Shown piece after piece: positions 22,680 through 64,000 of a stretch of DNA of 64,000 bases (positions are counted from its first letter, which is position 1; the number at the start of each line of letters is the position of its first letter). The notes under the pieces were generated by a model. It did not search any database. It had not been told where the DNA came from and saw only the letters and a program-made list of their open reading frames with translations. This DNA comes from Cryobacterium sp. Y57. GTDB taxonomy: Bacteria > Actinomycetota > Actinomycetes > Actinomycetales > Microbacteriaceae. Made by a program: the position numbers and the translations under genes. Location: positions 63,918-127,917 of the forward strand of contig NZ_PJJL01000064.1 of the NCBI RefSeq assembly GCF_002929505.1. Reading direction: 5' to 3'.

Positions 22680-24161
22680 TTAGCGCGGTGAGTGCGCCTC
22701 AAGAAATTCGTACACCTCGGTCTGGTCGACGCCGGGAAAGGTGCCGGTGGGCAGCGCGGCAAGCAGACTCGTCGGGGTGCGTGCGGCCGGCCACGATTGC
22801 CCGGCCCAGCGAACGGCCAGATTGTCAGGCGCGCGGCGGCAGCAGGATTCGTCGGGGCACAGGGAGACGGCGCGGTTCGCCGTCTCCCTGCCTCGGAACC
22901 ATTTCACGTGAGCGAACGGCACGCCAACGCTCACCGAGTACTCGCCCTCTTTGGCTTTTTCGATGCGGGAGGTACACCAGAAGCTTCCGGCCGGCATGTC
23001 CGTGTACTGATACCAGGCGCTGAACCGGTCTTCGACGTCGAAGACGGTACGAGCCGTCCAGCTGCGGCAGACAGTGGTGCCCTCGACCGCGCCCAGTGCG
23101 TCGCTTGGGAACCGCACGTTATCGTTCTCATATGCCTTGATGATCGTGCCGGACTCGTGCACCTTCATGAAATGCACGGGAATGTCTAGCCGTGCCGTAG
23201 CAAGGTTGGTGAAGCGATGAGCGGCCGTCTCGTAGGAGACCGCGAAAGCGTCCCGCAGGTCTTCCATGGAGATGCGCCGCAGGGTCTTGGCCTCGGTCAG
23301 CATACGCAGCGCGTCCCGCTCCGGCAGCAGGATAGCGGCGGTGAGATAGTTGGTCTCCACCCGTTGGCGCAGAAATTCAGCATAATTTTTTGGCTCTTCG
23401 TGCGCGCAGAGGTGGCTTGCGAAGGCCTGCACGATCGGCGAACGGGAATCTCGTGATGCCGAATGCTGGGTGGGTAAGTAGATGCGCCCGTTGCGCTTGT
23501 CGGTGACCGACCGGGTGGAGTGTGGAAGATCGTTCACATAGTGCAGCGAAAAACCCAGGTGGGTGGCCATGTCGGCAACGAGCTGCTGCGACACCGGGCC
23601 GCCGGAGTGCCCGACTGCGGTGAGCAGCTCGAGGGCTTGCGTCTCCAGCTCGGGAAAGTAGTTATCCTGCTGACGCATGATCTGGCGCAGCGCGGAATTA
23701 GCCCGTCGTGCCTCCTCCGGAGTCGCCGCGCGTTCGCGGTTGAGCCGGTCGATTTCATTATGCAAGCTCAGGATGGTCTGCAGTGTTTCGTCGCTCTGGC
23801 CTTTGCTCACTCGAATGCGGGGGAGTCCCAGGGCCTGGAAGACCGGCCCACGCTGGGCGCGCTCGACCGAGATTTCCAGGGCAGCGCGCTCGGAGGGGGC
23901 ATCCGTTCGCATCAGATCTTCGACGGTGGTGCCGAGCGCGAGGGCGATCGTGCGCAGCATGGAGAGGCGCGGTTCGCGCTTGCCGTTCTCCATCATCGAC
24001 ACCTGCGACGGCGCGCGGTCGATCGCGGCAGCGAGGGCGTCGAGCGTCATGCGCCGCGCGGTACGCAGCTCCCGAATGCGACGCCCCAGCGTGAGCGCGT
24101 CAAGTTCCGGTTCATCACTGCTGAGAGAGGAGAGCGCTGCGAGGGCTTCGGCGGGGACCAT
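22680..24161 (-). CDS. RamB-like XRE/IrrE-type regulator of acetate metabolism
   Basis: A 493-residue regulator. An XRE helix-turn-helix lies at residues 24-80 (GRRIRELRTARRMTLDALAAAIDRAPSQVSMMENGKREPRLSML). The middle resembles the ImmA/IrrE domain seen in RamB, and the C terminus has a Cys cluster CPDESCCRRAPDN of DUF2083. RamB of Corynebacterium controls ack-pta and the glyoxylate genes aceA and aceB. This gene is divergent from aceB, supporting a role in controlling it. ATG at 24161 gives a normal N terminus. The upstream region holds a RamB-box-like sequence, suggesting autoregulation. Confidence 0.85.
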   Translation of the reverse strand: MVPAEALAALSSLSSDEPELDALTLGRRIRELRTARRMTLDALAAAIDRAPSQVSMMENGKREPRLSMLRTIALALGTTVEDLMRTDAPSERAALEISVERAQRGPVFQALGLPRIRVSKGQSDETLQTILSLHNEIDRLNRERAATPEEARRANSALRQIMRQQDNYFPELETQALELLTAVGHSGGPVSQQLVADMATHLGFSLHYVNDLPHSTRSVTDKRNGRIYLPTQHSASRDSRSPIVQAFASHLCAHEEPKNYAEFLRQRVETNYLTAAILLPERDALRMLTEAKTLRRISMEDLRDAFAVSYETAAHRFTNLATARLDIPVHFMKVHESGTIIKAYENDNVRFPSDALGAVEGTTVCRSWTARTVFDVEDRFSAWYQYTDMPAGSFWCTSRIEKAKEGEYSVSVGVPFAHVKWFRGRETANRAVSLCPDESCCRRAPDNLAVRWAGQSWPAARTPTSLLAALPTGTFPGVDQTEVYEFLEAHSPR

Positions 24162-24177
24162 AGCGCCAGTGTCGCAG

Positions 24178-24231
24178 ATCGCAAAAGTTTCCACAATCAG
24201 AAGAACAAGGTTTCTTCTGCCCAATTATTAT
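24178..24231. promoter_or_regulatory. Regulatory region between ramB-like gene and aceB
   Basis: GCAAAAGTTT (24181-24190) resembles the RamB box (TTTGCAAAGTTT) with one extra A. AGAAGAA (24199-24205) and TTCTTCT (24212-24218) form a 7-bp dyad. TATTAT at 24226-24231 could be the aceB -10. All are by-eye matches. Confidence 0.4.
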
Positions 24232-24421
24232 GGTTCGGCCCGGCCCCGGTCGGGCAGAGTAAAGGTACAGGCAAATACCACTGTCGAATCGTGATGGCAC
24301 ACCCCTACACTCGCTCATTCGGCCGAAGCAAAACAGCTCCCCCCCGCCACCTGGAATCGGTCGCACCGCACCTACAGCTCGACCGCCGTCAGTACCACCT
24401 ACTTTCGCAAGGAGTCAGATC

Positions 24422-26095
<1,674 letters not shown>

Positions 26096-26115
26096 CTCGT
26101 TCGACGTTCGCGAAA

Positions 26116-26179
26116 ACGGGCAGACGGATGCTGCACCCCGGCATGATCACAGGGGTGCAGCATCCGTCTGCCCGTTTTT
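26116..26179 (+). terminator. Strong rho-independent terminator after aceB
   Basis: Two perfect 24-bp arms (26116-26139 and 26152-26175) surround a 12-base loop, followed by a T run at 26175-26179. It separates aceB from the SipW region. Confidence 0.92.
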
Positions 26180-26204
26180 GTTGAGAGCAGACCCATCGTT
26201 CCAT

Positions 26205-26303
26205 CCCCCAGTCTGGGGGGTCTTGGCCACCCAACGGGGGTATACATGAGAATGTCTCATCTCTATTGTTCTGAATATAGATGATGAATAAAATTCATCA
26301 TCT
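26205..26303 (+). promoter_or_regulatory. Upstream control region of SipW cluster 1 (three dyads)
   Basis: Three elements stand in order. First is CCCCCA-GTC-TGGGGG (26205-26219). Second is GGGGGTATACATGAGA with TCTCAT to its right (dyad 26246-26260). Third is a perfect dyad AGATGATGAAT-AAA-ATTCATCATCT (26279-26303) that ends 33 bases before the GTG. ACTGACAATTGAGA follows. The same elements with equal spacing occur before cluster 2. Confidence 0.65.
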
Positions 26304-26335
26304 CACCTTGGGACTGACAATTGAGAGGCACAATC

Positions 26336-26935
26336 GTGAACAAAATGCTCAAAGGATCCATCGCTGGCGCTGCCGGCGTTGCTCTTCTCCTTGGCGGCGC
26401 GGGAACCTTCGCGCTCTGGAATGACGACGCGGCGATCGCCGGTGCAATCATCACTGCTGGCACGCTGACGGTCAAAGCGTCGGAGAGCACCTGGCGCGAC
26501 GGTGCGGGCACCGAAATCACCGAACCGGAAAAGTACCTCATTGTTCCGGGCGACACGCTCACCTCTGCCACCACACTGACTGTGAACGCGCAGGGCGATA
26601 ACCTTCAAGCGACCCTTAATATCCCTCAGGGCTCGATCGCGGCCCACGCCACTACCGACAAGGAGGACGTGGCGCTATACGAGGCTCTCGAGGTGATGAC
26701 CACGGTCACCACCGTTGAGGACGGGGGCACTGTGGCGATCGAAGCCGAAGTCGACGGTTCCTATAAGGTCAACGTGTCGGCAGGGGAGTCGCAGGAGTAT
26801 CTCGTGACTGTCGCGGTCGACTTCCCGAGCGGTGCCGAAGGTGACGACAACGCTGCGCAGGCCGGAAGGGTCGATCTGTCCGCGTTCGACGTCACCCTCA
26901 CGCAGACCCCCGCCCCCGCGCCGGTCGCCGAATAG
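26336..26935 (+). CDS. TasA/camelysin-like secreted protein 1 with SipW-type signal peptide
   Basis: A 199-residue protein. Residues 1-45 (KMLKGSIAGAAGVALLLGGA, then GTFALWND) form an alternate SipW-type signal peptide with the hydrophobic LLLGGAGTFALW before the cleavage region. The mature part is acidic and beta-rich with ITAGTLTV, IVPGDTLTSATTLTVNAQGDNLQATL and C-terminal FDVTLTQTPAPAPVAE, a pattern of TasA-like matrix or filament subunits. The GTG at 26336 has GAGAGG seven bases upstream. It starts cluster 1, followed by a hairpin, a paralogue and a SipW peptidase. Expected location is outside the cell. The assignment rests on signal shape and context. Confidence 0.78.
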   Translation: MNKMLKGSIAGAAGVALLLGGAGTFALWNDDAAIAGAIITAGTLTVKASESTWRDGAGTEITEPEKYLIVPGDTLTSATTLTVNAQGDNLQATLNIPQGSIAAHATTDKEDVALYEALEVMTTVTTVEDGGTVAIEAEVDGSYKVNVSAGESQEYLVTVAVDFPSGAEGDDNAAQAGRVDLSAFDVTLTQTPAPAPVAE

Positions 26936-27235
26936 GACCTCGGCGCCCCACGAAAGGAGAGTCGCGTGAAATCGCAGGTGCGAGCGCGACTCTCCCCGTG
27001 GACTCCGGTTAGCCGGAATGTCGTTCAAAAATAAAACTCGGCGATTGAATGAATGTCGCCGGCACCGACGCAGAACGCCAAGACATATTTTTCCAACGGT
27101 TTGGGACCCGCCGACACAGGGCGTTCCATCCTCGGGCGGGGACCCAGGTGCGGTTTTGCGTTCCCCAAGGGCTCCGCGCGGCAAACGGTAGAGAGATTTC
27201 CTCGGTTCACCTCGATTGTAGAATGGAAGATTTTC
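26936..27235. other. Spacer between TasA-like genes 1 and 2
   Basis: About 300 bases without a supportable gene. It contains the hairpin at 26956-26995. The 26954-26990 stretch (GGAGAGTCGCGTGAAA...) resembles the start of the sipW gene at 27836-27880 (GGGGAGTCGGGTGAAA...), so it could be a relic of a duplicated sipW start. GGAAGA near 27225 serves the next ATG. Confidence 0.4.
26956..26995 (+). terminator. Attenuator-like hairpin after TasA-like gene 1
   Basis: GGAGAGTCGCG (26956-26966) pairs with CGCGACTCTCC (26985-26995), and inside TCGC pairs with GCGA. No U tract follows. Such a hairpin between a subunit gene and its peptidase could protect the upstream mRNA or lower read-through. Confidence 0.55.
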
Positions 27236-27808
27236 ATGAAGCGGATCCTCACCGGTTCGATCGCCGGCGCTACTGGTATGGCACTTCTTCTTGGCGGGGC
27301 GGGAACCTTCGCGCTCTGGAATAGCTCCGCGGCCATCGCTGGCGCTCCCCTCACTGCCGGCACGCTGACGGTTGAGACGGCGGACGTTGTTTTCTGGACC
27401 GACCAGTACGGCACCGAGATCAATCTGGAGAGTTATAAGATCGTGCCCGGGGACGTCCTTACTTACACATCGTTCCTCAACGTCACAGCACGAGGTGACA
27501 ACCTCCATGCGCGAATAGCTATCGACCACGGCTCGATCAGCTCTGAAAACTCTGATGCCAGCACGGCGCTTAAGATCCTCCTCGACAAGACGACCATTGT
27601 GTCGGTGGACATCGGCGACGCAATATACGTCCCCCACGCCTATAGCGACGATCAAACCTGGTTCGACCTGAGCGAAGGCGACCACGAGCTCCGCGTTACG
27701 GTCGTGATCGAATTCCTGGAGAGCTTCGATGACGTTGACGACGACGACGCGAAGAACGCATCGGCCCTCTTGTCCAATCTCGGCGTGATCCTCACGCAGA
27801 CCCCGTAG
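27236..27808 (+). CDS. TasA/camelysin-like secreted protein 2 with SipW-type signal peptide
   Basis: A 190-residue paralogue of the preceding gene. The signal MKRILTGSIAGATGMALLL, then GGAGTFALWNSSAAIAG, is nearly identical, also at DNA level. IVPGDVLTYTSFLNVTARGDNLHARIAI matches the other mature beta repeat, and it ends LGVILTQTP. The C-terminal part contains an acidic run (FDDVDDDD). ATG at 27236 with GGAAGA upstream. It lies 38 bases before the SipW peptidase. Probably a minor or anchoring subunit of the same structure; this role is inferred. Confidence 0.78.
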   Translation: MKRILTGSIAGATGMALLLGGAGTFALWNSSAAIAGAPLTAGTLTVETADVVFWTDQYGTEINLESYKIVPGDVLTYTSFLNVTARGDNLHARIAIDHGSISSENSDASTALKILLDKTTIVSVDIGDAIYVPHAYSDDQTWFDLSEGDHELRVTVVIEFLESFDDVDDDDAKNASALLSNLGVILTQTP

Positions 27809-27846
27809 CCGCTCATTACCACTGAGCGCTCACGCAGGGGAGTCGG

Positions 27847-28515
27847 GTGAAACAAGTCGCAGTGCGCGTGACTGTCGACGCTGACCCGCGTCCTTTGCCC
27901 AAGCCGACCAAGCAGGCCGCTGGCCTGTGGCGTCAGATCAGTTTCGCATTGAGTCTGGCCGTATTACTTTTGGTAATCGGTCTCGGCGCCGTGCTAGTCG
28001 TCGTGCCGAAGGTCACTGGGTCGATCCCGCTTACCGTGCTTACCGGCTCGATGGAGCCGGGATTTCCACCCGGCACGCTGATTATCGTTCGACCCGTTGC
28101 AGTTGAAGACCTGGCCCTGGGCGACGTGATCACCTACCAAATGGAGACGGGAAAACCCGGTGTCGTTACCCACCGCGTCATCGCGATCAATATGACCGCG
28201 GGTGAGCGCACGTTCGTCACGAAGGGTGACAACAACGGTGCGGCCGATGCGTCCGCAGTGCTCGAAGGGCAGATTCAAGGCCGGCTCTGGTACTCCGTTC
28301 CGCTGATTGGCTACGTCAATAATGCGGTCAATGGCGCCAACCGGGTCTGGCTCATTCCGGTGGCCGCGTCATTGCTGTTCGCCTACGCGGGCTCCATGAT
28401 CTTCGCCGGCGTCGTGGCCAGCGTGCGCAAGCGGCGCAGAACGGGCCAGTCGGGCGGGACGACGCTCGACTCGGCTGCCGGTGATTCTGGCGTCAATGTC
28501 GACGAACGAAGCTAG
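27847..28515 (+). CDS. SipW-type signal peptidase I (copy 1)
   Basis: A 222-residue membrane peptidase of the ER/archaeal (Ser-His) type. The N-terminal span (ISFALSLAVLLLVIGLGAVLVVV) is followed by the catalytic serine in LTGSMEPGFPPGTL, the conserved GDVITYQM, the catalytic His in THRVI and the GDNN box. A second span (VWLIPVAASLLFAYAGSMIF) lies near the C terminus. It would cleave the SipW-type signals of the two preceding proteins. GTG at 27847 with AGGGGAG. It is closely related to copy 3 at 35.3 kb and less to copy 2. Confidence 0.9.
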   Translation: MKQVAVRVTVDADPRPLPKPTKQAAGLWRQISFALSLAVLLLVIGLGAVLVVVPKVTGSIPLTVLTGSMEPGFPPGTLIIVRPVAVEDLALGDVITYQMETGKPGVVTHRVIAINMTAGERTFVTKGDNNGAADASAVLEGQIQGRLWYSVPLIGYVNNAVNGANRVWLIPVAASLLFAYAGSMIFAGVVASVRKRRRTGQSGGTTLDSAAGDSGVNVDERS

Positions 28516-28578
28516 AAAAATCTATCTCTATCCGTTGCGGGCACGTTTTGAGAACCGTCATCGGTAGGCGTTCCAGCA

Positions 28579-28675
28579 CCCAGATTGGGGGTTAGCTACA
28601 CCTGATGGGGGGCATACATGAGGAGTGCTCAAACCTACGCTTCTGGATGGGGATAATGAAAAGCCCTCATTATCC
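28579..28675 (+). promoter_or_regulatory. Upstream control region of SipW cluster 2
   Basis: CCCAGATTGGGGG (28579-28591), GGGGGGCATACATGAG (28607-28622) with CTCA at 28628-28631, and a dyad GGATAATG-N9-CATTATCC (28651-28675), then ACTGACAATTTGAGA. Distances from TGGGGG to ATACATGAG (28 bases) and to the start of the last dyad (65 bases) are the same as in cluster 1. Confidence 0.65.
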
Positions 28676-28708
28676 ACTTCAAAACTGACAATTTGAGATG
28701 AGACTGAC

Positions 28709-29377
28709 GTGAAACTTATGTTAAACCGCAAGAAGGCCATCATTGGGGCCGGGGGCGTCGCTGTGGCGCTGACCATGGCACTCGCGGCATTGGGGCCGAC
28801 CGGTGCGTACTTCAGCGATACCGAGCAGGGCAGCATTGATGGCACGAAGGGCTCGATTAAGATCGCAGGCGTCGACAGCCTCGACTTGCACTTCACCAAC
28901 ATGCTCCCGGGTGAGCTGCAGACTGTCTCCGAACGGTACACGAACAACGGCCGGAGTCCCCAGGATGTCTGGGTCGTCTTCAATAACGCCGAGGCGCTGC
29001 ACGCGTTGAATGACGAAGGCACCTTCATGGAATTCCATCTTTCGGCAAACGGCACAGCCCTATTTGATTCAGCGAACCTGAACGACAATGGCGATGGTGT
29101 TCCCGGATGCTCGGGTGACCCGGAATTTTCCCCGGACGGCTGCTGGCCTTTGGAACGTGCGTACAAGCTGCAGGAAAACCTCACGCCGGGGTCCATCGGA
29201 CAAGTTTCCTTCAGCGCTATGATCGCCGCCAAAGCTGTCGGCCAGTCCGAGGTTGGCGGCGGCGAATGGCTCCCGTACCCGGTCAAGCAGCAAAATGGAC
29301 CGCCCGTGAAGGCCACAAATGCAGGACTGCCGTACCAGATCGTCGCAACACAGGTGGGGCAGAAACCGAGCCTCTAA
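28709..29377 (+). CDS. TasA/camelysin-like secreted protein 3 (GAYFSDTE type)
   Basis: A 222-residue protein with an N-terminal signal (NRKKAIIGAGGVAVALTMAL) running into GPTGAYFSDTEQG, the classic camelysin/TasA signal-mature junction. The mature part has beta-rich IKIAGVDSLDLHFTNMLPGELQT and RYTNNGRSPQDVWVVF, and two Cys (PGCSGDPE, DGCWPLE) that could form a disulfide. It differs in sequence from the cluster 1 proteins and is followed by a different SipW peptidase, suggesting a separate enzyme-substrate pair. GTG at 28709; ATG at 28718 is an alternative start. Confidence 0.8.
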   Translation: MKLMLNRKKAIIGAGGVAVALTMALAALGPTGAYFSDTEQGSIDGTKGSIKIAGVDSLDLHFTNMLPGELQTVSERYTNNGRSPQDVWVVFNNAEALHALNDEGTFMEFHLSANGTALFDSANLNDNGDGVPGCSGDPEFSPDGCWPLERAYKLQENLTPGSIGQVSFSAMIAAKAVGQSEVGGGEWLPYPVKQQNGPPVKATNAGLPYQIVATQVGQKPSL

Positions 29378-29386
29378 GGCGTGAGT

Positions 29387-29431
29387 GAATGGCTCGGATA
29401 TCGCTGTCGGGTAGCGACGTCCGGGCCATTC
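29387..29431 (+). terminator. Attenuator-like hairpin before sipW copy 2
   Basis: GAATGGC/GCCATTC, CGGA/TCCG and TCGCT/AGCGA pair in order with single or double mismatched bases between, giving a long stem with a 7-base loop. It lies ten bases after the subunit stop. No U tract. Confidence 0.6.
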
Positions 29432-29460
29432 CACATTTCATTTCGAGCTGAAGGGGCACC

Positions 29461-29976
29461 GTGAAGCGATTCAAGGGCACTGTGATTTTGTTGCTTGTGC
29501 TGGCCGCCGTGCTCACACCGGTAGCTCTCGTGGCCACGGGCGCTCTGCCCTACCGTGCGTATGTCGTGCGCACAGGGTCGATGTCGCCCACCATTCTGCC
29601 GGCCAGCGTCGTTATCGCTGAGGCCGACCAGTACGAGGTCGGCCAGATCATCACCTTTCGGCACGCTGGCGATCGCACCACCCACCGACTTGTTGCTGTC
29701 AACGACGATGGCACCCTGACCACCCAGGGTGATGCGAATAACACGGTCGACCCCTTTACCGTGCCCACCGCTGATGTCATTGGCGGTGTGACGGCCTTTG
29801 TGCCGCGGCTCGGCTATCTGGTGGTCTACCTGCAGAATCCGTTGGCCCTCGGCTCCCTCATTATGTGTGTCCTGAGCATGTGGTACATCGGGTCGTCCGA
29901 CCAGAAACGGGAACAAAAGCCTGAGAAGAAACCCTCCGAGAAAATCCCGGGAATCGTGTCCGTTCAGGTGGTCTAA
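29461..29976 (+). CDS. SipW-type signal peptidase I (copy 2)
   Basis: A 171-residue Ser-His signal peptidase. N-terminal span GTVILLLVLAAVLTPVALVA, catalytic serine in VVRTGSMSPTILPASVV, GQIITFRHAG, catalytic His in TTHRLVAV, and GDANNTVD. A C-terminal span (YLQNPLALGSLIMCVLSMWYIG) and a charged tail (KREQKPEKKPSEK) follow. It lacks the long cytosolic N terminus of copies 1 and 3. Likely processes the GAYFSDTE protein upstream. Its stop overlaps the photolyase stop on the other strand by four bases. Confidence 0.87.
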   Translation: MKRFKGTVILLLVLAAVLTPVALVATGALPYRAYVVRTGSMSPTILPASVVIAEADQYEVGQIITFRHAGDRTTHRLVAVNDDGTLTTQGDANNTVDPFTVPTADVIGGVTAFVPRLGYLVVYLQNPLALGSLIMCVLSMWYIGSSDQKREQKPEKKPSEKIPGIVSVQVV

Positions 29977-31409
29977 CTCGCCGATTGGGCCTTGACCCTC
30001 TCGTAGGCGGCGAGGGCGGCTCGGCGCGTTTCGCCGAGGTCGACGAGGGGCTCCGGGTAGGCATCCGTGCCGTACTCGGGTACGTATTCCCGGATGTACT
30101 GCTGGTGCGGGTCGAACTTGGCCGCCTGCAACTCGGGATTGAAGATGCGAAAGTAGGGCGCAGCATCCGCTCCGGAGCCGGCCACCCACTGCCAGCCGAA
30201 AGGGTTGCTCGCAGCGTCGGCATCGACCAAAGTGTCCCAGAACCAGCGCTCTCCTTCGCGCCAGTCGACCAACATATTCTTGATCAGGAATGATGCGGTA
30301 ACCATGCGTACCCGATTATGCATACTTCCAGTGCGCCACAGTTCGCGCATCCCGGCATCGACGAGCGCAAAGCCGGTGCGCCCCTGTTTCCAAGCGGCGA
30401 GTGCACGCTCGTCAACCGGTGGCCACGGGAAAGCGTCGAAGGCGGGGCGCAGGTTTGTCGTCGCGAGCTGGGGAGCGTGAAAGAGCACGTGGTAAGCGAA
30501 CTCGCGCCAGCCGAGCTCGGTGAGAAATCGGGTCGCGCTTGTCAGCGCCGGGCCGGAGAGTTCACGCTGAGCCTGCTGCGTGGCGGCCCAAACCTGATGC
30601 GGGCTGATCTCGCCCCAGCGCAGGTACGGTGACAGGCGCGACGTGGCGTTCTGGGCCGGTTCGTCACGGTCGGCGGCGTAGCGCGGAAGCGCCTCTGCGA
30701 GAAAGCGCTCGAGCATTCTCTGAGCGGATGCTTCGCCCGGCGTCCAGGCGGCGCGCAGCCCGGCGGCCCAGTCGGGCGCACTCGGCTCGAGGCCCCAGTC
30801 GTTCAGGTTGTCGGAGTCGAGGCCGTCTGTCGCGGTGTCGCCCGTCGAGGTGGCAATACTGGTGGGTGCCGGATACGGCGCGCGCGGCGGCGGGCCTGCT
30901 GTGCAGGAACGCCAGAACGGCGTAAAAACCGAGTAAGAGCCGCCTTGCCCGGTCTGCACCGTCCAGGGTTCGAACAGAAGCGAACCCGCGAAACTGTGGG
31001 TGTCCACGCCGCGCCCGCGCAACTCGGCCTTGATCGCGGTGTCGATCGTGCGTTCGGCCTCGCCGTAGCGGCGATTCCAGAAGACCGCCGCGGCATCCGT
31101 GTCGTGCACAATCTGAGCGATGATTGCGGCCGCAGCACCCCGGCGCAGGATGAGTCGCCCGCCGAGCTTTTCGAGGGTCGCAGCCAGAGATCGCAGGCTT
31201 TGGTGTAACCACCAGCGAGCCGCACCTCCGAGCGGACGCACGCCGGGAGATTCGTCGTCAAACACGTACACGGCCACGATCGGTCGTTGACGGGCCAAGG
31301 CGGCGTGCAGGGCCGGATGGTCGGCAACCCGTAGATCGTCGCGGAACCAGACGACGACGGGGCCGGCGGGCTCGTCGGGGTGGGGGGTGATGGCGGGGGG
31401 TGCAGTCAT
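29973..31409 (-). CDS. phr: Deoxyribodipyrimidine photo-lyase
   Basis: A 478-residue CPD photolyase/cryptochrome-family enzyme repairing UV dimers. N-terminal alpha/beta domain: VVVWFRDDLRVADHPAL and AVFWNRRYGEAE. FAD domain: TSRLSPYLRWGEISPHQVW, FLTELGWREFAYHVLFH, GRTGFALVDAGMRELWRTGSMHNRVRMVTASFLIKNMLVDWREGERWFWDTLVDAD, and NPFGWQWVAGSG. It sits on the opposite strand between SipW clusters 2 and 3, so it is an unrelated passenger. The start is GTG or ATG near 31409. Confidence 0.94.
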   Translation of the reverse strand: MTAPPAITPHPDEPAGPVVVWFRDDLRVADHPALHAALARQRPIVAVYVFDDESPGVRPLGGAARWWLHQSLRSLAATLEKLGGRLILRRGAAAAIIAQIVHDTDAAAVFWNRRYGEAERTIDTAIKAELRGRGVDTHSFAGSLLFEPWTVQTGQGGSYSVFTPFWRSCTAGPPPRAPYPAPTSIATSTGDTATDGLDSDNLNDWGLEPSAPDWAAGLRAAWTPGEASAQRMLERFLAEALPRYAADRDEPAQNATSRLSPYLRWGEISPHQVWAATQQAQRELSGPALTSATRFLTELGWREFAYHVLFHAPQLATTNLRPAFDAFPWPPVDERALAAWKQGRTGFALVDAGMRELWRTGSMHNRVRMVTASFLIKNMLVDWREGERWFWDTLVDADAASNPFGWQWVAGSGADAAPYFRIFNPELQAAKFDPHQQYIREYVPEYGTDAYPEPLVDLGETRRAALAAYERVKAQSAS

Positions 31410-31885
31410 GGGCGTCTCCTCCAGAGAACTCCAGTGTGGACCCTTCCGGCGAGTAGACCAATTCGGAGGTAGAACGCTCTGTATTGGACTGACCTTCTAT
31501 GGTGCACCGAGGAAGCTCAGACGCGAAAACCTCGGTGTGACTGTAAAAAACGACGAAAATCAGCATAAAACTGTACGGATACTGGATAAAAACACCGTAT
31601 TTGCTCAAAAACCCAATTCCCTATTCTGGGGGTTTGAGTAGGACAGACATATCCGTCTGTCCCATCTAGTGTGTGAATCGCGGATGGCGCTACAGCCGAA
31701 AAAATCATCGGCGATTTGTCGCAATTCATGGCTTGATACCCAGAGCCGTGGCAGCCAACCGCAACAACGGCGTGCTTACCCCACGCCGGCCACTTGGCGG
31801 GTTCTCTCACCGTTGCTCCACGCCTGCCGATTTCTGGCCTGCGATCACCCGAAGTTTTCAGACCAGTACTCGAAGGGTTTTACTC
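31410..31885. other. Long intergenic region upstream of SipW cluster 3
   Basis: About 476 bases, AT-richer than the surroundings in its first half, with no supportable gene. CCCAATTCCCTATTCTGGGG lies at 31613-31632, and a perfect dyad GGACAGAC-ATATCC-GTCTGTCC lies at 31641-31662. These resemble, but do not match in spacing, the regions before clusters 1 and 2. The rest up to AAGGG near 31873 would be a long 5' leader of the next gene. Confidence 0.5.
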
Positions 31886-32515
31886 ATGAACAAGCTCACT
31901 AAAGCCGCGATTGCCGGCGCTGCCGGTCTCACCCTGCTACTCGGCGGCGGCACGACTTTCGCACTATGGAACTCCTCGGCTGCGGTTTCCGGCGGCACGA
32001 TTATCGCCGGCAACTTGGTCGTTACCCCCACTGTGTCCAACGGCGTCGAAGTCGCAGGAATCTGGAGCGTGAAGGACGAAACCGCCGAGGGCACGGAGAT
32101 CCCTGTGCTTGCCAATTTCAAAGCCTCGCCCGGTGATGTGCTGGTGTACACCAAGTCCATGCACATCACGGCCAGTGGCGATAACCTCGTCGCCGATCTG
32201 GCGCTTGCCCCGGGTTCGATCAAAGCTACAAAGACAAGCGTTCCTGCCGATGAGAATCTCGCAGAATATCTCGAGGGGACCGCGGTTCTGACAGCGAGGG
32301 GTACTGGAATTACCGACAACTACTCCGAGTCCTACCGGACGGTGGCCACCGGCTCGACGAAATATGTCGTCACGCCCGGAACGGGAGTGGTCGATGAAGA
32401 CGTCACCGTCGAGGTGACAATCACCTTCCCGAACGGCGCCTTGGGCCGTGAGAACACCATGATGCTCGGTTCGGTCACCCTTCAAGACATGGCGGTCACG
32501 CTTACCCAGCAGTAA
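31886..32515 (+). CDS. TasA/camelysin-like secreted protein 4 with SipW-type signal peptide
   Basis: A 209-residue paralogue of the two cluster 1 proteins: signal TKAAIAGAAGLTLLLGGGT, then TFALWNSSAAVSGG, then IIAGNLVV. The mature half repeats the pattern ASPGDVLVYTKSMHITASGDNLVADLAL and ends MAVTLTQQ. ATG at 31886 with AAGGG upstream. First gene of the five-gene cluster 3, followed by a strong hairpin. Presumably the main subunit of a surface fibre or matrix. Confidence 0.78.
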   Translation: MNKLTKAAIAGAAGLTLLLGGGTTFALWNSSAAVSGGTIIAGNLVVTPTVSNGVEVAGIWSVKDETAEGTEIPVLANFKASPGDVLVYTKSMHITASGDNLVADLALAPGSIKATKTSVPADENLAEYLEGTAVLTARGTGITDNYSESYRTVATGSTKYVVTPGTGVVDEDVTVEVTITFPNGALGRENTMMLGSVTLQDMAVTLTQQ

Positions 32516-32527
32516 CCGGTCTGTGCC

Positions 32528-32558
32528 GGGGTGCCCACCATTCGACGGTGGGCACCCC
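32528..32558 (+). terminator. Attenuator-like hairpin after TasA-like gene 4
   Basis: A perfect 12-bp stem GGGGTGCCCACC / GGTGGGCACCCC with loop ATTCGAC, 13 bases after the stop. No U tract follows and downstream genes continue on the same strand. Confidence 0.65.
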
Positions 32559-32609
32559 GAAAACGGCCAGCACGCAGTGTCCTTTCGATTCGCGAAAGCC
32601 GGTGATCTT

Positions 32610-33143
32610 TTGAAAACGTATTTACTCGCCAGCGCGGCGATTCTGGGCGCTACCCTCCTGGCGACGGCCGCTGTCGGCGGAACCTATGCCCTGCTCACTT
32701 CAAGCGCCTCGGCCGGCCAGGCGGTGACCATTCAGGCCGGAGCGGCAGCCCTCAGCATCACGTCACCCCTCGTGCTGTCGAATGCCCCGTTGTATCCGGG
32801 AGCGAGAAATGTCGGCACGGTCGAAGTGCGAAACGACGGCACTGTGTCGCTCGCGCTTCGGCTTTTTGGACTGACGCCGCCGACGGCCCAGACCGCATTG
32901 TCTGAGGACTTGATCGTGGGTGCTCGAACAGTGTCGGCGGTGAGCGAGTGCACGTCGAGCCTGACACCGACCATTACCGGAACTTTTCGTTCCGCGCCGG
33001 TTGCCGAGCTCGGTACGACCCTCGCCCCGGGGGCTACGGCAATACTCTGCGTCTCGGTGGGGCTGTCAGCGGATGCCCAGAGCGCCAGCCAATCCCAGAC
33101 TGCGACCAGTTTCGGACTTTTGATTGATGGACGACAGGTCTAG
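32610..33143 (+). CDS. Camelysin-like secreted protein with SipW-type signal
   Basis: A 177-residue secreted protein. The N terminus (KTYLLASAAILGATLLATAA, then VGGTYALLTSSASAGQ) has the same hydrophobic run and Tyr-Ala-Leu junction as the other SipW-type signals. The mature part is rich in Ser, Thr and Ala with SLALRLFGLTPP and two Cys (SECTSSL, ILCVSV). The TTG at 32610 is chosen because GGTGA is upstream and the signal then has normal length; a GTG at 32577 is possible. Four bases separate it from the next gene. Confidence 0.65.
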   Translation: MKTYLLASAAILGATLLATAAVGGTYALLTSSASAGQAVTIQAGAAALSITSPLVLSNAPLYPGARNVGTVEVRNDGTVSLALRLFGLTPPTAQTALSEDLIVGARTVSAVSECTSSLTPTITGTFRSAPVAELGTTLAPGATAILCVSVGLSADAQSASQSQTATSFGLLIDGRQV

Positions 33144-33146
33144 CCC

Positions 33147-34504
33147 GTGAAATTGCACCGTCACTTCCCGCGTTCCCTGCGACTGCGAACACGGCGTTCG
33201 ACTGTTCGCCGACGGGTATCCCGGCCTCGCTGGCCCGCTACCCGGTCAGCCCTCACGATCGCGAGCGCTGTCTTGTTGACCCTCTCAGGCTCTGGAGCTG
33301 CCCAAGCCCTCTGGACCGCCGCGGCGGTCCATCCCACGGCATCCGTTCGGTCGGGCGCCGTGACGATCAGCCAGACGGGGTTTGCCGAGCTCGCGACGAC
33401 GTACACGTCCACCGGCCTCTCGACCACCAAGCTGATTTCGGTATCTAACGAAGGTGTGCCAGCCAGCTACAGTCTGGTGCTCGGCTCAGCCTCGTCTACC
33501 CCGACCTCGTTCGCCGAGGCAATCACCGTGCGCACCTGGGCGATCGCCGAGGCCGGTACCTGCGCTTCGACGCCGTCGACCAGCACACGAAGCAGCACCT
33601 GGGCGAGTGGAGTCGTACTCAGCGGCTCCCTGGCGGCGGGGGCTTCGGCGCGCTATTGCGTGCAGACCGCCATCACCAGCGCGGCCGCTGGGAACGCGCT
33701 CGGCACGACGATGACGGCGCGAATGGATCTGCAAGCGCGTGCCGCCAACTGGACCTCACCGGTGACGACCTTGACAATCGTGCAGAAAGTGGCTGACACT
33801 GCGCCGCGGTCGCTGGCTGCGGCTAGAAAGACGGCCAGCTCCATCTCGTTGAGCTGGGATGCGCCCAACGATGAATCCGTGACGCGATACCAGCTGTATC
33901 GCGGTAGTACGGCAGTCTCGTCGGTGCAGACCGCAACCACCTTCACGGACACGGGCCTGACGGCAAATACTGCCTACGGTTACACGGTGTATTCCGTGGA
34001 TGGCGACAACAACCGTCTGGCAGCCTCGAACGTGCTCGCTGTCACGACGGATAGAAAGGTGCCGGCGCCGAATACCTGGTACCACGTCGTTACCGCAGAC
34101 GGAAGCTGCGTCGATGCCGCAGCTCCGCAAGAAGAAGGCAGAGTTCTTGCAACGACGCTGTGCTCGACGGCCTCATCATCGAGCTTTCGCTTCGTCGCGG
34201 ATGGAGAGGGCGCCTACACGGTCAACGCAAAAACGAACGCCAGGGTGTGGGATTCCAGGGCTAAGAAGCAGGGCTCGTCCGACGTGACACTGAGCGTCGA
34301 AGATGGCGGACCACAGAGATTGGAGCGACACTTCGCTCTCATCAGCATTGATGACACGACCGGAGCATTCCAGATTCGCAGCATGCAGGTAAGTAAACAC
34401 TGTATGCAATCGGGCGCTTCGGGTACCGCGCTCACCATGCAGTCCTGCGACACCACGATTCCCAGCCAGGACAACCAGCAATTCACCCTGGTCGAGGTGA
34501 CACC

Positions 34505-34508
<4 letters not shown>
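33147..34508 (+). CDS. Secreted protein with fibronectin type III and ricin B-type lectin domains
   Basis: A 453-residue multidomain secreted protein. A basic N terminus precedes a hydrophobic signal (LTIASAVLLTLSGSGAAQAL) ending in ALWTAAAVHPTASVRSGAVTI, again SipW-like. Residues 60-210 are a Ser/Thr-rich beta domain. Residues 215-305 form a fibronectin type III domain (APRSLAAARKTASSISLSWD, YQLYRGSTAV, YTVYSVDGDNN). Residues 311-453 resemble a ricin B-type beta-trefoil with CVDAA, CMQSG and a final QQFTLVEV, suggesting carbohydrate binding. GTG at 33147; ATGA overlap with the next gene. Likely the adhesive tip or binding part of the surface structure, by inference. Confidence 0.75.
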
Positions 34509-35259
<751 letters not shown>

Positions 35260-35263
<4 letters not shown>

Positions 35264-35925
35264 CCGGACATCAGACACTCGCGTCTGTCGACCGACCTCA
35301 GGAATTTGCAGCCGCTTCGCCCGCACCCCCCGAGAGCAGTATCTGGCGGTACCTCGGATTGGCGCTCAGCGCGGCCCTGCTCCTGCTCGTTGTCGGTCTT
35401 GGGGTGCTGCTCGTGGTGATTCCCAAGGTGACCGGCGCGACCCCGCTGACCGTGCTGACCAGCTCCATGGAGCCGGGGCTTCCACCGGGCACTCTGGTCA
35501 TCGTGCGTCCGGTCGCCGCCGAGACGCTGCGCATCGGCGACGTCGTCACGTATCAAATGGTGTCGAATGATGCCAAGGTCGTGACCCACCGCATCATCTC
35601 GATCACGTCGAGCTCAGACGGATCGCGTTCTTTTATCGTGCAGGGTGACAACAACAGCGTGCCCGACGACGATCCGGTGCTGGCTGAGCAGGTTCAGGGC
35701 CGGCTCTGGTACGCGGTGCCCTACGTCGGCTACGTCAACAACGTGGTCAACGGGGCAAACCGGGCTTGGATCATCCCCGTGCTGACCGTCGCGCTTTTCG
35801 GTTACGCCGGATTCATGGTCGCCGGAGGCGTGCTTGATCGCAAACGAACTCGCTCGCGAACAGCCGATACCAGCCAGCCGGGCGTCGCGGGCGCGACGGG
35901 GAAGGGCGCGGCTGAGCGCTCGTGA
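35260..35925 (+). CDS. SipW-type signal peptidase I (copy 3)
   Basis: A 221-residue Ser-His signal peptidase very like copy 1: VIPKVTGATPLTVLTSSMEP (catalytic Ser in SSMEPG), GDVVTYQM, catalytic His in THRIISI, QGDNNSVPDDDP, and the shared GRLWYAVPYVGYVNNVVNGA followed by a C-terminal span. The GTG at 35260 overlaps the LPXTG gene stop. As last gene of cluster 3 it likely processes the SipW-type signals of the three proteins upstream. The strong similarity to copy 1 indicates duplication of a TasA-SipW unit. Confidence 0.9.
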
Positions 35926-35947
35926 TGACCGGTCAATCGCTTGACGA

Positions 35948-36934
35948 TTAGGACACGCGCAGCACGATCTTGCCACGGGTATGACCCTCCTCGAGCAGCC
36001 GATGGGCCGCGGCACCGTCGGCGAGGTCGAACAGCGAGTCGACGTGCACCCGCACGATACCCGCGTCGAGCAGCGCCGAGATTTCGTCGAGCACGCGTGC
36101 GTCGGGGGACACCTTGAAATCGGTTGCGCGTCGTCCTGCTGCTGCGGCATCCGCTGCCAAGGTCGGCCAGCTGCCGGTCGGCGCGTTCACGAGCAGGCCG
36201 TCGGGGCGCAGCACACCGAGGGAACGGGTGCCGGTGTCGTCATGCACGTTGCCAATGAGGTCGATGACCGAGTCGAGGTCGTGGACCACGTCTTCGAAGC
36301 GCGTTGTCGTGTAGTCGATGACCTCGTCGGCGCCGAGCTCGCGCAGAAAATCGAGGTTGCGGGTCGATGCCGTGGCGGTCACGTGGGCGCCGAGAACCCG
36401 GGCGAACTGCACTGCGAAGTGGCCGACGCCGCCGCTGGCGGCGTGCACGAGCATGCACTGCCCGGGGGCGGCTCCGGCCAGCTTGACCATGCCCCATGCG
36501 GTCAGAGCCGCAAGGGGAACCGCGGCCGCCTCGGCATGACTGAGCCGGGCGGGTTTGCGGGTGACGCTCATGCTCGACACCGAGACATACTCGGCGAAAC
36601 TGCCACCGATGCGCGGCACCCGGCCCATGCCATAGACGGCATCGCCCGGCTGGAGGGGCGCGGCCTCGAAGGCAGCGCGCACAACGATTCCGCTGAAATC
36701 GTTGCCGAGAATGGCCGGGTAGCTCTCGATGGCGGCCGCGACACCCGTGCCGGAGCGCGTCTTGGCGTCGATCGGGTTGAGACCGGCCGCGATGACCTTG
36801 ACGAGAACCTCGTCGACAATCTGGCGTGGCAGCATTCGATCGGCCAAGTGCAACACTTCGGGGGCGCCGGTCTCGTCGATGACCAGGGCGCGCATGGTCT
36901 GCGGCAGTTCGAATTCAGGAGCCATGCTCCCCAT
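35948..36934 (-). CDS. Zinc-independent MDR-family quinone oxidoreductase-like protein
   Basis: A medium-chain dehydrogenase/reductase of about 328 residues. Visible motifs are the GroES-like N-terminal part (VKVIAAGLNPIDAKTRSGTG, ILGNDFSGIV, GDAVYGM), the nucleotide-binding VHAASGGVGHFAVQFARVLGAHVTATAS and LGADEVIDY. Cys ligands for catalytic zinc are absent, as in quinone reductases (QOR). NADPH-dependent reduction of quinones or enones is the expected activity. ATG at 36934 or 36925 could be used. It converges on the sipW copy 3 gene. Confidence 0.85.
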   Translation of the reverse strand: MGSMAPEFELPQTMRALVIDETGAPEVLHLADRMLPRQIVDEVLVKVIAAGLNPIDAKTRSGTGVAAAIESYPAILGNDFSGIVVRAAFEAAPLQPGDAVYGMGRVPRIGGSFAEYVSVSSMSVTRKPARLSHAEAAAVPLAALTAWGMVKLAGAAPGQCMLVHAASGGVGHFAVQFARVLGAHVTATASTRNLDFLRELGADEVIDYTTTRFEDVVHDLDSVIDLIGNVHDDTGTRSLGVLRPDGLLVNAPTGSWPTLAADAAAAGRRATDFKVSPDARVLDEISALLDAGIVRVHVDSLFDLADGAAAHRLLEEGHTRGKIVLRVS

Positions 36935-63490: not shown

Positions 63491-64000
63491 TCAGGGGAGG
63501 CGGGAGAAGGCGGAGGCGCGGCGTACCTGGTCTGGCGTGGGACGGATGCCGGTGTACAGATAGAACTGCTCCTCGGCTTGCAGCGCCACCACCTCAGCGC
63601 CGGTGATGACCGGCTTTCCGACCGCGCGCGCGGCCAGGATCAGCGGCGTCTCGGCGGGAGAGGCCACGACGTCGAAGACGACGCTCGCGCCCGCGATGGT
63701 CGACGTGGAAAAGGACGTCTGATCGGCTTCAGCGCCGCCCGCCATACCCACCGGTGTGACGTTGACGATGAGGTCGGCGGTGAGCGCGCCCACCGTGGGC
63801 GCCCAATCGTAGCCGTACAGTGCGGCCAAGGCCCGGCCGGTGACTTCGTTGCGCGCCACTATCGTTCCCTGCGCGAACCCGGCATCGTGCAGGGCTGCCG
63901 CGACGGCCTTGGCCATGCCGCCGCTCCCGTGCACGATCACCGAGTAAGCGCGTGGAACGTCATGCTCGCCCAGCAGGCGCTGTACGGCCGAGTAGTCGGT
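63491..64000 (-). CDS. aroE: Shikimate dehydrogenase-like protein, partial (5' end outside the window)
   Basis: The C-terminal two-thirds of a shikimate dehydrogenase-like protein; the frame is open to the window edge. VIVHGSGGMAKAVAAALHDAG is the NADP site, NVTPVGMAGG and VFDVVASPAETPLILAARAVGKPVITGAEVV are typical family segments. It lacks the N-terminal shikimate-binding half, which must lie beyond 64000. It would reduce 3-dehydroshikimate; a quinate/shikimate-type relative cannot be excluded. Confidence 0.82.
   Translation of the reverse strand, partial: TDYSAVQRLLGEHDVPRAYSVIVHGSGGMAKAVAAALHDAGFAQGTIVARNEVTGRALAALYGYDWAPTVGALTADLIVNVTPVGMAGGAEADQTSFSTSTIAGASVVFDVVASPAETPLILAARAVGKPVITGAEVVALQAEEQFYLYTGIRPTPDQVRRASAFSRLP

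Follow-up and report, generated by a model that had tools for sequence, protein, structure and literature searches.

How do two neighbouring gene clusters, whose proteins have no detectable similarity to each other, come to stand behind similar control regions? The question is raised by a 64,000-nucleotide stretch of the Cryobacterium sp. Y57 genome (contig NZ_PJJL01000064.1, forward-strand positions 63,918 to 127,917; hereafter the window), in which two SipW-type signal peptidase clusters, clusters 1 and 2, are preceded by regions called here W1 and W2, respectively. The original prediction for this stretch described a conserved control region with an inverted repeat that was either a functional RNA stem or a relaxed operator. 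In this work, related elements were compared across the genus, and their promoters, pairing and folding were analyzed. The reading that we favor, with moderate confidence, is an activated promoter followed by an mRNA-stabilising leader hairpin, present in one Cryobacterium subset. The compensation within the stem is real, and the hairpin appears, from the aligned sequences, to be more strongly conserved in pairing than in sequence.

Layout of the two regions and their predicted promoters

The predicted layout was confirmed in every position. TGGGGG, at 26214 in W1 and 28586 in W2, is followed in both regions after 28 bases by ATACATGAG (26242 and 28614) and after 65 bases by a dyad (starting at 26279 and 28651), and then by ACTGACAATT (26313 and 28684) and a GTG codon (26336 and 28709). 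The dyad arms are unlike and their pairing is retained, with the centres 45 (W1) and 46 (W2) bases 5' of the GTG. In total, 79 of 133 aligned bases are identical between W1 and W2. The following features were assigned.

26205–26219, unstranded: W1 candidate operator 1, the perfect palindrome CCCCCAGTCTGGGGG, with TGGGGG as its right half
26230–26240, unstranded: W1 candidate operator 2, CCCAACGGGGG (CCCAATGGGGG in many relatives), abutting the -35
26241–26246, + strand: W1 putative -35 element, TATACA
26264–26269, + strand: W1 putative -10 element, TATTGT, 17 bp past the -35
26276 (+/-1), + strand: W1 transcription start predicted from the -10 position
26279–26289 and 26293–26303, + strand: W1 leader hairpin, arms AGATGATGAAT and ATTCATCATCT, with an 11-bp stem and a 3-nt loop, recognised by covariation
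26313–26338, + strand: W1 conserved, probable ribosome-binding region, ACTGACAATTGAGAGG, with the GTG (26336)
28586–28591, unstranded: W2 candidate operator 1 half-site, TGGGGG
28606–28611, unstranded: W2 candidate operator 2 half-site, TGGGGG, 20 bp past the first
28613–28618, + strand: W2 putative -35 element, CATACA
28636–28641, + strand: W2 putative -10 element, TACGCT
28648 (+/-1), + strand: W2 transcription start predicted from the -10 position
28651–28659 and 28667–28675, + strand: W2 leader hairpin, arms GGATAATGA and TCATTATCC, with a 9-bp stem, recognised by covariation
28684–28711, + strand: W2 conserved, probable ribosome-binding region, ACTGACAATTTGAGATGAG, with the GTG (28709)

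The control region is conserved, as had been proposed: its motifs and their fixed spacing recur in 15 related elements, which the covariance model R1 finds in 11 of 57 genus genomes. Within the 4.0-Mb genome of Y57 itself, GGGGGNATACATGAG with up to two mismatches has 15 sites, of which only W1 and W2 are exact and the other 13 carry two mismatches. With three mismatches allowed, the window alone contains 6 sites against 3.6 expected, which is not unusual; what carries the case is therefore the two exact matches together with the 13 related elements in other genomes.

All 15 elements contain (C/T/A)ATACN and, 17 bp further on, TANNNT; the ATAC of the former and the TA and final T of the latter are invariant, while the middle of the latter is variable. 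We read these boxes as -35 and -10 elements, which makes ATACATGAG the -35 region. The elements thus have the TANNNT (15/15) and the -35 at 17 bp (15/15) of a housekeeping-type promoter, with a -35 far from TTGACA. A TGGGG starts 27–29 bp 5' of the -35 in 13 elements, and another starts 7 bp 5' of it in nine (6 bp in G019c1); in elements that do not have both sites, one of the two is degenerate. Across these sites and those of the related promoters described below, steps of about 10, 20 and 33 bp would be compatible with sites on one face of the helix. In our reading, TGGGGG and ATACATGAG would lie outside the RNA, as operator half-sites and -35 region. The C-rich/G-rich palindrome of the element calls to mind CsoR-type operators, which are palindromes of a C-tract and a G-tract. 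A regulon search with the operator pattern CCCCANNNTGGGG gave three genome sites, W1 among them, against one for a control pattern; the site at C66:115025 lies between two genes without clear relation. An alternative start with its -10 at CATACA was rejected on inspection, the final T being absent in 14 of the 15 elements and no -35 being found at 17 bp.

Compensated pairing in the stem

The original prediction proposed covariation among homologous upstream regions as its check, and the stem does covary there beyond a tree-aware null, with alignment-free arm swapping in agreement. The null preserves the tree and the substitution counts (400 simulations, one mostly gapped column removed; here and in the G-U and W1/W2 tallies below, a gap in three rows was shifted by one column). 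Cells of the inner stem are paired in 92.1% of cases, compared with 75.9% (standard deviation 3.8) under the null, and the double-change score is 0.110, compared with 0.015; neither value was reached in any of the 400 simulations. By simple counting in the alignment of the 15 elements (A1), 92% of the cells of the 11-bp stem are paired and five of its pairs have changes at both sides. Sliding the 3' partners by 1–3 columns lowers the whole-structure pairing from 84.8% to 35–51%, and in a shuffle control three measures were exceptional (0/500 as high): paired cells, double-change cells and the covariation score. When arms were swapped between rows, own arms paired at -9.45 kcal/mol and cross combinations at -7.53 kcal/mol (p=0.0002, 15 rows), with p=0.0002 for 13 rows, 0.004 for the eight cluster 2 rows and 0.067 for the five cluster 1 rows, by a statistic that ignores the relatedness of the rows. 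Within the Y57 genome, two stem pairs, one AT to GC and the other GC to AT, are fully compensated between W1 and W2; the W2 stem is without the two loop-adjacent pairs present in W1.

The same symmetry could belong to DNA. The stem might be an operator straddling the transcription start, its palindrome being read by a dimeric repressor and its half-sites drifting together with the symmetry kept. The predicted start is a common position for repressors, three of the 11 stem pairs are invariant among the elements, and a marginal symmetry reaches the -10 and discriminator, beyond the RNA made from the predicted start. However, what would be one protein would meet unlike arms at two sites of one genome, and the one-sided changes in the stem core are those that RNA would give: all 12 non-Watson-Crick cells of the eight core pairs are G-U and none is A-C. 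This count is optimistic, since the core pairs were picked after viewing the table, and the skew is support for RNA rather than proof of it, since the cells are not independent. It nevertheless favors RNA over the operator for the stem, so that of the two options originally offered the RNA stem is strengthened, while the operator is unlikely.

Predicted transcript start and folding of the leader

According to the reading that we favor, a putative activator would bind the TGGGGG half-sites, spaced at about whole helical turns, upstream of a weak -35 ((C/T)ATACA), and RNA polymerase would use the TANNNT -10 located 17 bp past it. Transcription would start about 3 nt ahead of the stem, placing a stable hairpin at the 5' end of the mRNA, with the ribosome-binding site (RBS) about 20 nt past the hairpin. 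By analogy with known leaders, the hairpin would most likely keep the 5' end of these mRNAs, which encode secreted fibre-type proteins, from decaying. Protection of the mRNA is the best fit because the predicted hairpin is stable and near the 5' end, the predicted exposure of the RBS varies little with temperature, the genes encode secreted proteins, and such a role of 5' stem-loops is documented. The predicted stem is stable from 0 to 37 C: over this range, all 13 leaders folded from the predicted start retain a core pair with a probability of at least 0.86.

An RNA thermometer was considered and rejected. In the 13 leaders from the predicted start, the mean predicted unpaired fraction of the Shine-Dalgarno (SD) sequence rises from 0.47 at 0 C to 0.59 at 37 C, and from two longer starts it goes from 0.78 to 0.83 and from 0.28 to 0.31; with predicted exposure changing so little, SD sequestration is unsupported. 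Another candidate, helix P1 (TGAG/CTCA, W1 26246–26260), located in the promoter spacer, is complementary but shows no coevolution (own -2.13, cross -2.06 kcal/mol, p=0.31).

Several results weigh against a protective hairpin made from the predicted start. The leaders from this start fold better than shuffles at z < -2 in only 5 of 15 cases (median -1.77), and longer transcripts fold better: the median z is -2.19 from column 66 (10/15 below -2) and reaches its lowest value, -2.71, from column 56 (13/15 below -2). From column 56, the stem is lost in at least one of 13 leaders (minimum pair probability 0.01–0.02). The better long folds may reflect an upstream start, symmetric DNA in this region, or a conserved coincidence. 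RNAalifold extends the stem outward by an outer helix (5' arm in W1 at 26267–26275), for which covariation under the tree-aware null is marginal (p 0.005 and 0.007) and arm swapping gives p=0.007 (15 rows), 0.11 (13 rows) and 0.81 (the eight cluster 2 rows); these figures are optimistic, since the helix was picked after the RNAalifold suggestion. The 5' arm of the outer helix coincides in part with the -10 and discriminator; the helix is therefore absent from the predicted-start RNA and, if real, needs a start upstream of 26276 and 28648. Within the pairing data, two of the five shuffle measures were ordinary (double-change pairs 236/500 and pair types 52/500 as high), one of three arm-swap control segment pairs reached p=0.049 (15 rows), A-C occurs in seven cells near the loop (columns 87–89), and the whole long hairpin has 32 G-U, 17 A-C and 28 other mismatches. 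Finally, a generic promoter scan with stricter thresholds did not report these promoters, the related sequences number only 15, and the leaders of four element-free genus orthologues fold no better than shuffles (z -0.39, 0.04, -0.94 and -0.56).

A longer transcript, from about 26255–26260, would suit a switching RNA, that is, a riboswitch, a protein-binding leader or an SD-occluding structure. Many folds from column 56, where z is lowest, close on the ribosome-binding region, and the 5' segment is complementary to the RBS region (-7.23 kcal/mol) beyond the level of letter-shuffled controls (-3.98 kcal/mol). However, this closing helix shows no coevolution in the arm swap (own -7.23, cross -7.48 kcal/mol, p=0.66), no upstream TANNNT -10 suits such a start on inspection, and predicted SD exposure shifts only slightly over the temperature range given above. 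A search of Rfam 15 over positions 24000–36000 at E up to 5 gave six matches, all to microRNA families and below their gathering scores, and no bacterial family. We regard a switching RNA as unlikely. A more elaborate variant, which we hold to be rather improbable, is a cis-regulatory RNA of matrix genes, restricted to the genus, in which a long hairpin that begins close to the -10 and extends into the RBS region would sense a signal or a protein and coordinate fibre clusters and, in one species, glycosyltransferase clusters; the outer helix and the RBS complementarity would then be its switching parts, and the start would lie upstream of the 26276 and 28648 predictions.

Occurrence of the element, neighboring genes and wider meaning

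The element has a narrow range. Five elements precede TIGR04089 genes (W1, G037, G034, G036 and G019) and eight precede cluster 2-type genes (W2, G047, G053, G050, G019, G036, G020 and G011). One of the remaining two precedes a glycosyltransferase gene (G029, L168:3713-10093): two of the next four genes past this element encode glycosyltransferases, where relatives have SipW clusters, and the element retains its place after what we take to be a malate synthase gene. The other (G034, L028:2328-2466) is an apparently orphan second copy at the malate synthase place, with a strong predicted hairpin, no obvious gene and an opposite-strand neighbor that is presumably photolyase-like.

R1 was built from A1, in which copies with two locus identifiers were counted once, so that its E-values for the 15 elements prove nothing; it found no elements in the 57 genus genomes beyond these sources. 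Its 19 rows include four weak reverse-strand matches on the same elements, as expected since the element is palindromic. BLASTN with W1 matched 15 of the 57 genomes, some in coding sequence only. In a family search under strict filters, which weak copies may escape, R1 matched 5 of 398 genomes; four were Cryobacterium known to bear the element, and the match outside the genus (G078, E 0.0036, 23 bits) was treated as chance. The cluster 1 signal peptidase and protein have relatives in 28 and 27 of the 57 genus genomes, respectively (counts that include cluster 3 paralogues), and the element is therefore rarer than the clusters.

That every copy was found in one subset of one genus, with a single weak R1 match outside, could mean that duplicated upstream regions merely share ancestry and that the stem has no function. 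This is very improbable: in none of the 400 simulations did the tree-aware null reach the observed level of compensated changes, and the flanking proteins differ where the region itself is conserved.

The conservation of motif and pairing expected upstream of orthologous clusters holds in the element-bearing subset: 12 of the 57 genus genomes contain relatives of the cluster 2 gene, eight bear the element, and four have a cluster 2 orthologue without it (G026, G033, G046 and G048). In two of these four, TGGGG starts 17 and 50 bp 5' of CAGACA or CAGACG (in one of them also 80 bp 5'), which is followed by 17 bp and TAGGGT; of the other two, one has a single TGGGG at -58 and one has none. For these promoters the -10 boxes were picked by eye, with the spacing fixed at 17 bp. 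Leader folds of seven orthologues from other genera have z of -0.48 to -2.31, and 28 control genes have a median of -0.35, the start codon of several orthologues being extrapolated from partial alignment. Most of the pooled difference (19 vs 28, p=0.0012) is due to the eight element-bearing copies, and the hairpin is therefore not claimed outside such copies.

The genes of clusters 1 and 2 are as follows.

26336–26935, + strand: cluster 1 gene, TIGR04089 alternate-type signal peptide protein (E 5.1e-39)
27236–27808, + strand: cluster 1 second TIGR04089 protein (E 4.5e-37)
27847–28515, + strand: cluster 1 SipW-like signal peptidase (TIGR02228, E 4.1e-27, above cut-off)
28709–29377, + strand: cluster 2 gene, weakly camelysin/TasA-like (Peptidase_M73, 17.9 bits, below the 22.5 cut-off)
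29461–29976, + strand: cluster 2 SipW-like signal peptidase (30% identity to that of cluster 1 over 104 columns)

In cluster 1, a TIGR04089 substrate lies beside a SipW-like signal peptidase, as in a SipW-dependent secretion cluster. No NCBIfam match was obtained for the substrate of cluster 2, and the assignment of that cluster therefore rests on its peptidase. Upstream of W1, after the preceding gene, a long inverted repeat with a T tract behind it was noticed by eye (26116–26175), possibly a transcription terminator; it was not reported by the generic scan and gave spurious microRNA matches in Rfam.

Further downstream, the genes of cluster 3 include, within 33147–35263, two of note: the product of one matches fibronectin III and ricin-type lectin, and that of the other an LPXTG-type anchor. 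The cluster has a candidate related promoter:

31627–31672, + strand: cluster 3 putative promoter, with TGGGGG at 31627, -35 CAGACA at 31644, 17 bp, and -10 TAGTGT at 31667

Here TGGGGG lies 17 bp 5' of the -35, and a GGACAGAC/GTCTGTCC dyad lies over the -35. BLASTN found this promoter region in 13 of the 57 genus genomes. Within 31612–31720 the GGACAGAC-N6-GTCTGTCC dyad is strongly conserved, and similar two-armed dyads were seen by eye ahead of a TIGR04089-type gene at 10 of the 22 loci inspected.

In Bacillus subtilis, tapA-sipW-tasA is the matrix operon. Clusters 1 and 2 are like it in placing a SipW-type peptidase beside secreted substrates, whereas the TasA/camelysin likeness of cluster 2 falls below the family cut-off; the two systems are likened by genes, not by control. 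The literature search, which covered papers outside subscription, found, among the matches listed, nothing on the element and nothing on Cryobacterium together with SipW, and the family names led to Bacillus only. As for the leader, 5' untranslated region stem-loops that protect mRNA are documented for the ompA type (Emory et al. 1992, as cited in PMC7509114). The hairpin would resemble these as a stable stem-loop predicted a few nucleotides from the mRNA 5' end, ahead of the RBS, with pairing kept more than sequence; the stem begins about 3 nt after the start predicted from TANNNT. It differs in genus, sequence and genes. Among the -10 sequences of mapped starts in one actinobacterium, Mycobacterium tuberculosis, TANNNT is the most frequent (PMC3898074), and it is found here in 15/15 elements; unlike that map, which reportedly has no -35 consensus, the elements have a conserved -35 region and upstream G-rich sites.

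On this evidence, the element is not a new kind of system. It offers a testable control signature for actinobacterial SipW-type clusters, in which a common promoter grammar and a compensating leader stem precede unlike substrate genes. If the favored reading is true, the expression of extracellular fibre-type proteins would be linked to mRNA protection, and the candidate operator sites would provide a handle for finding the regulator.

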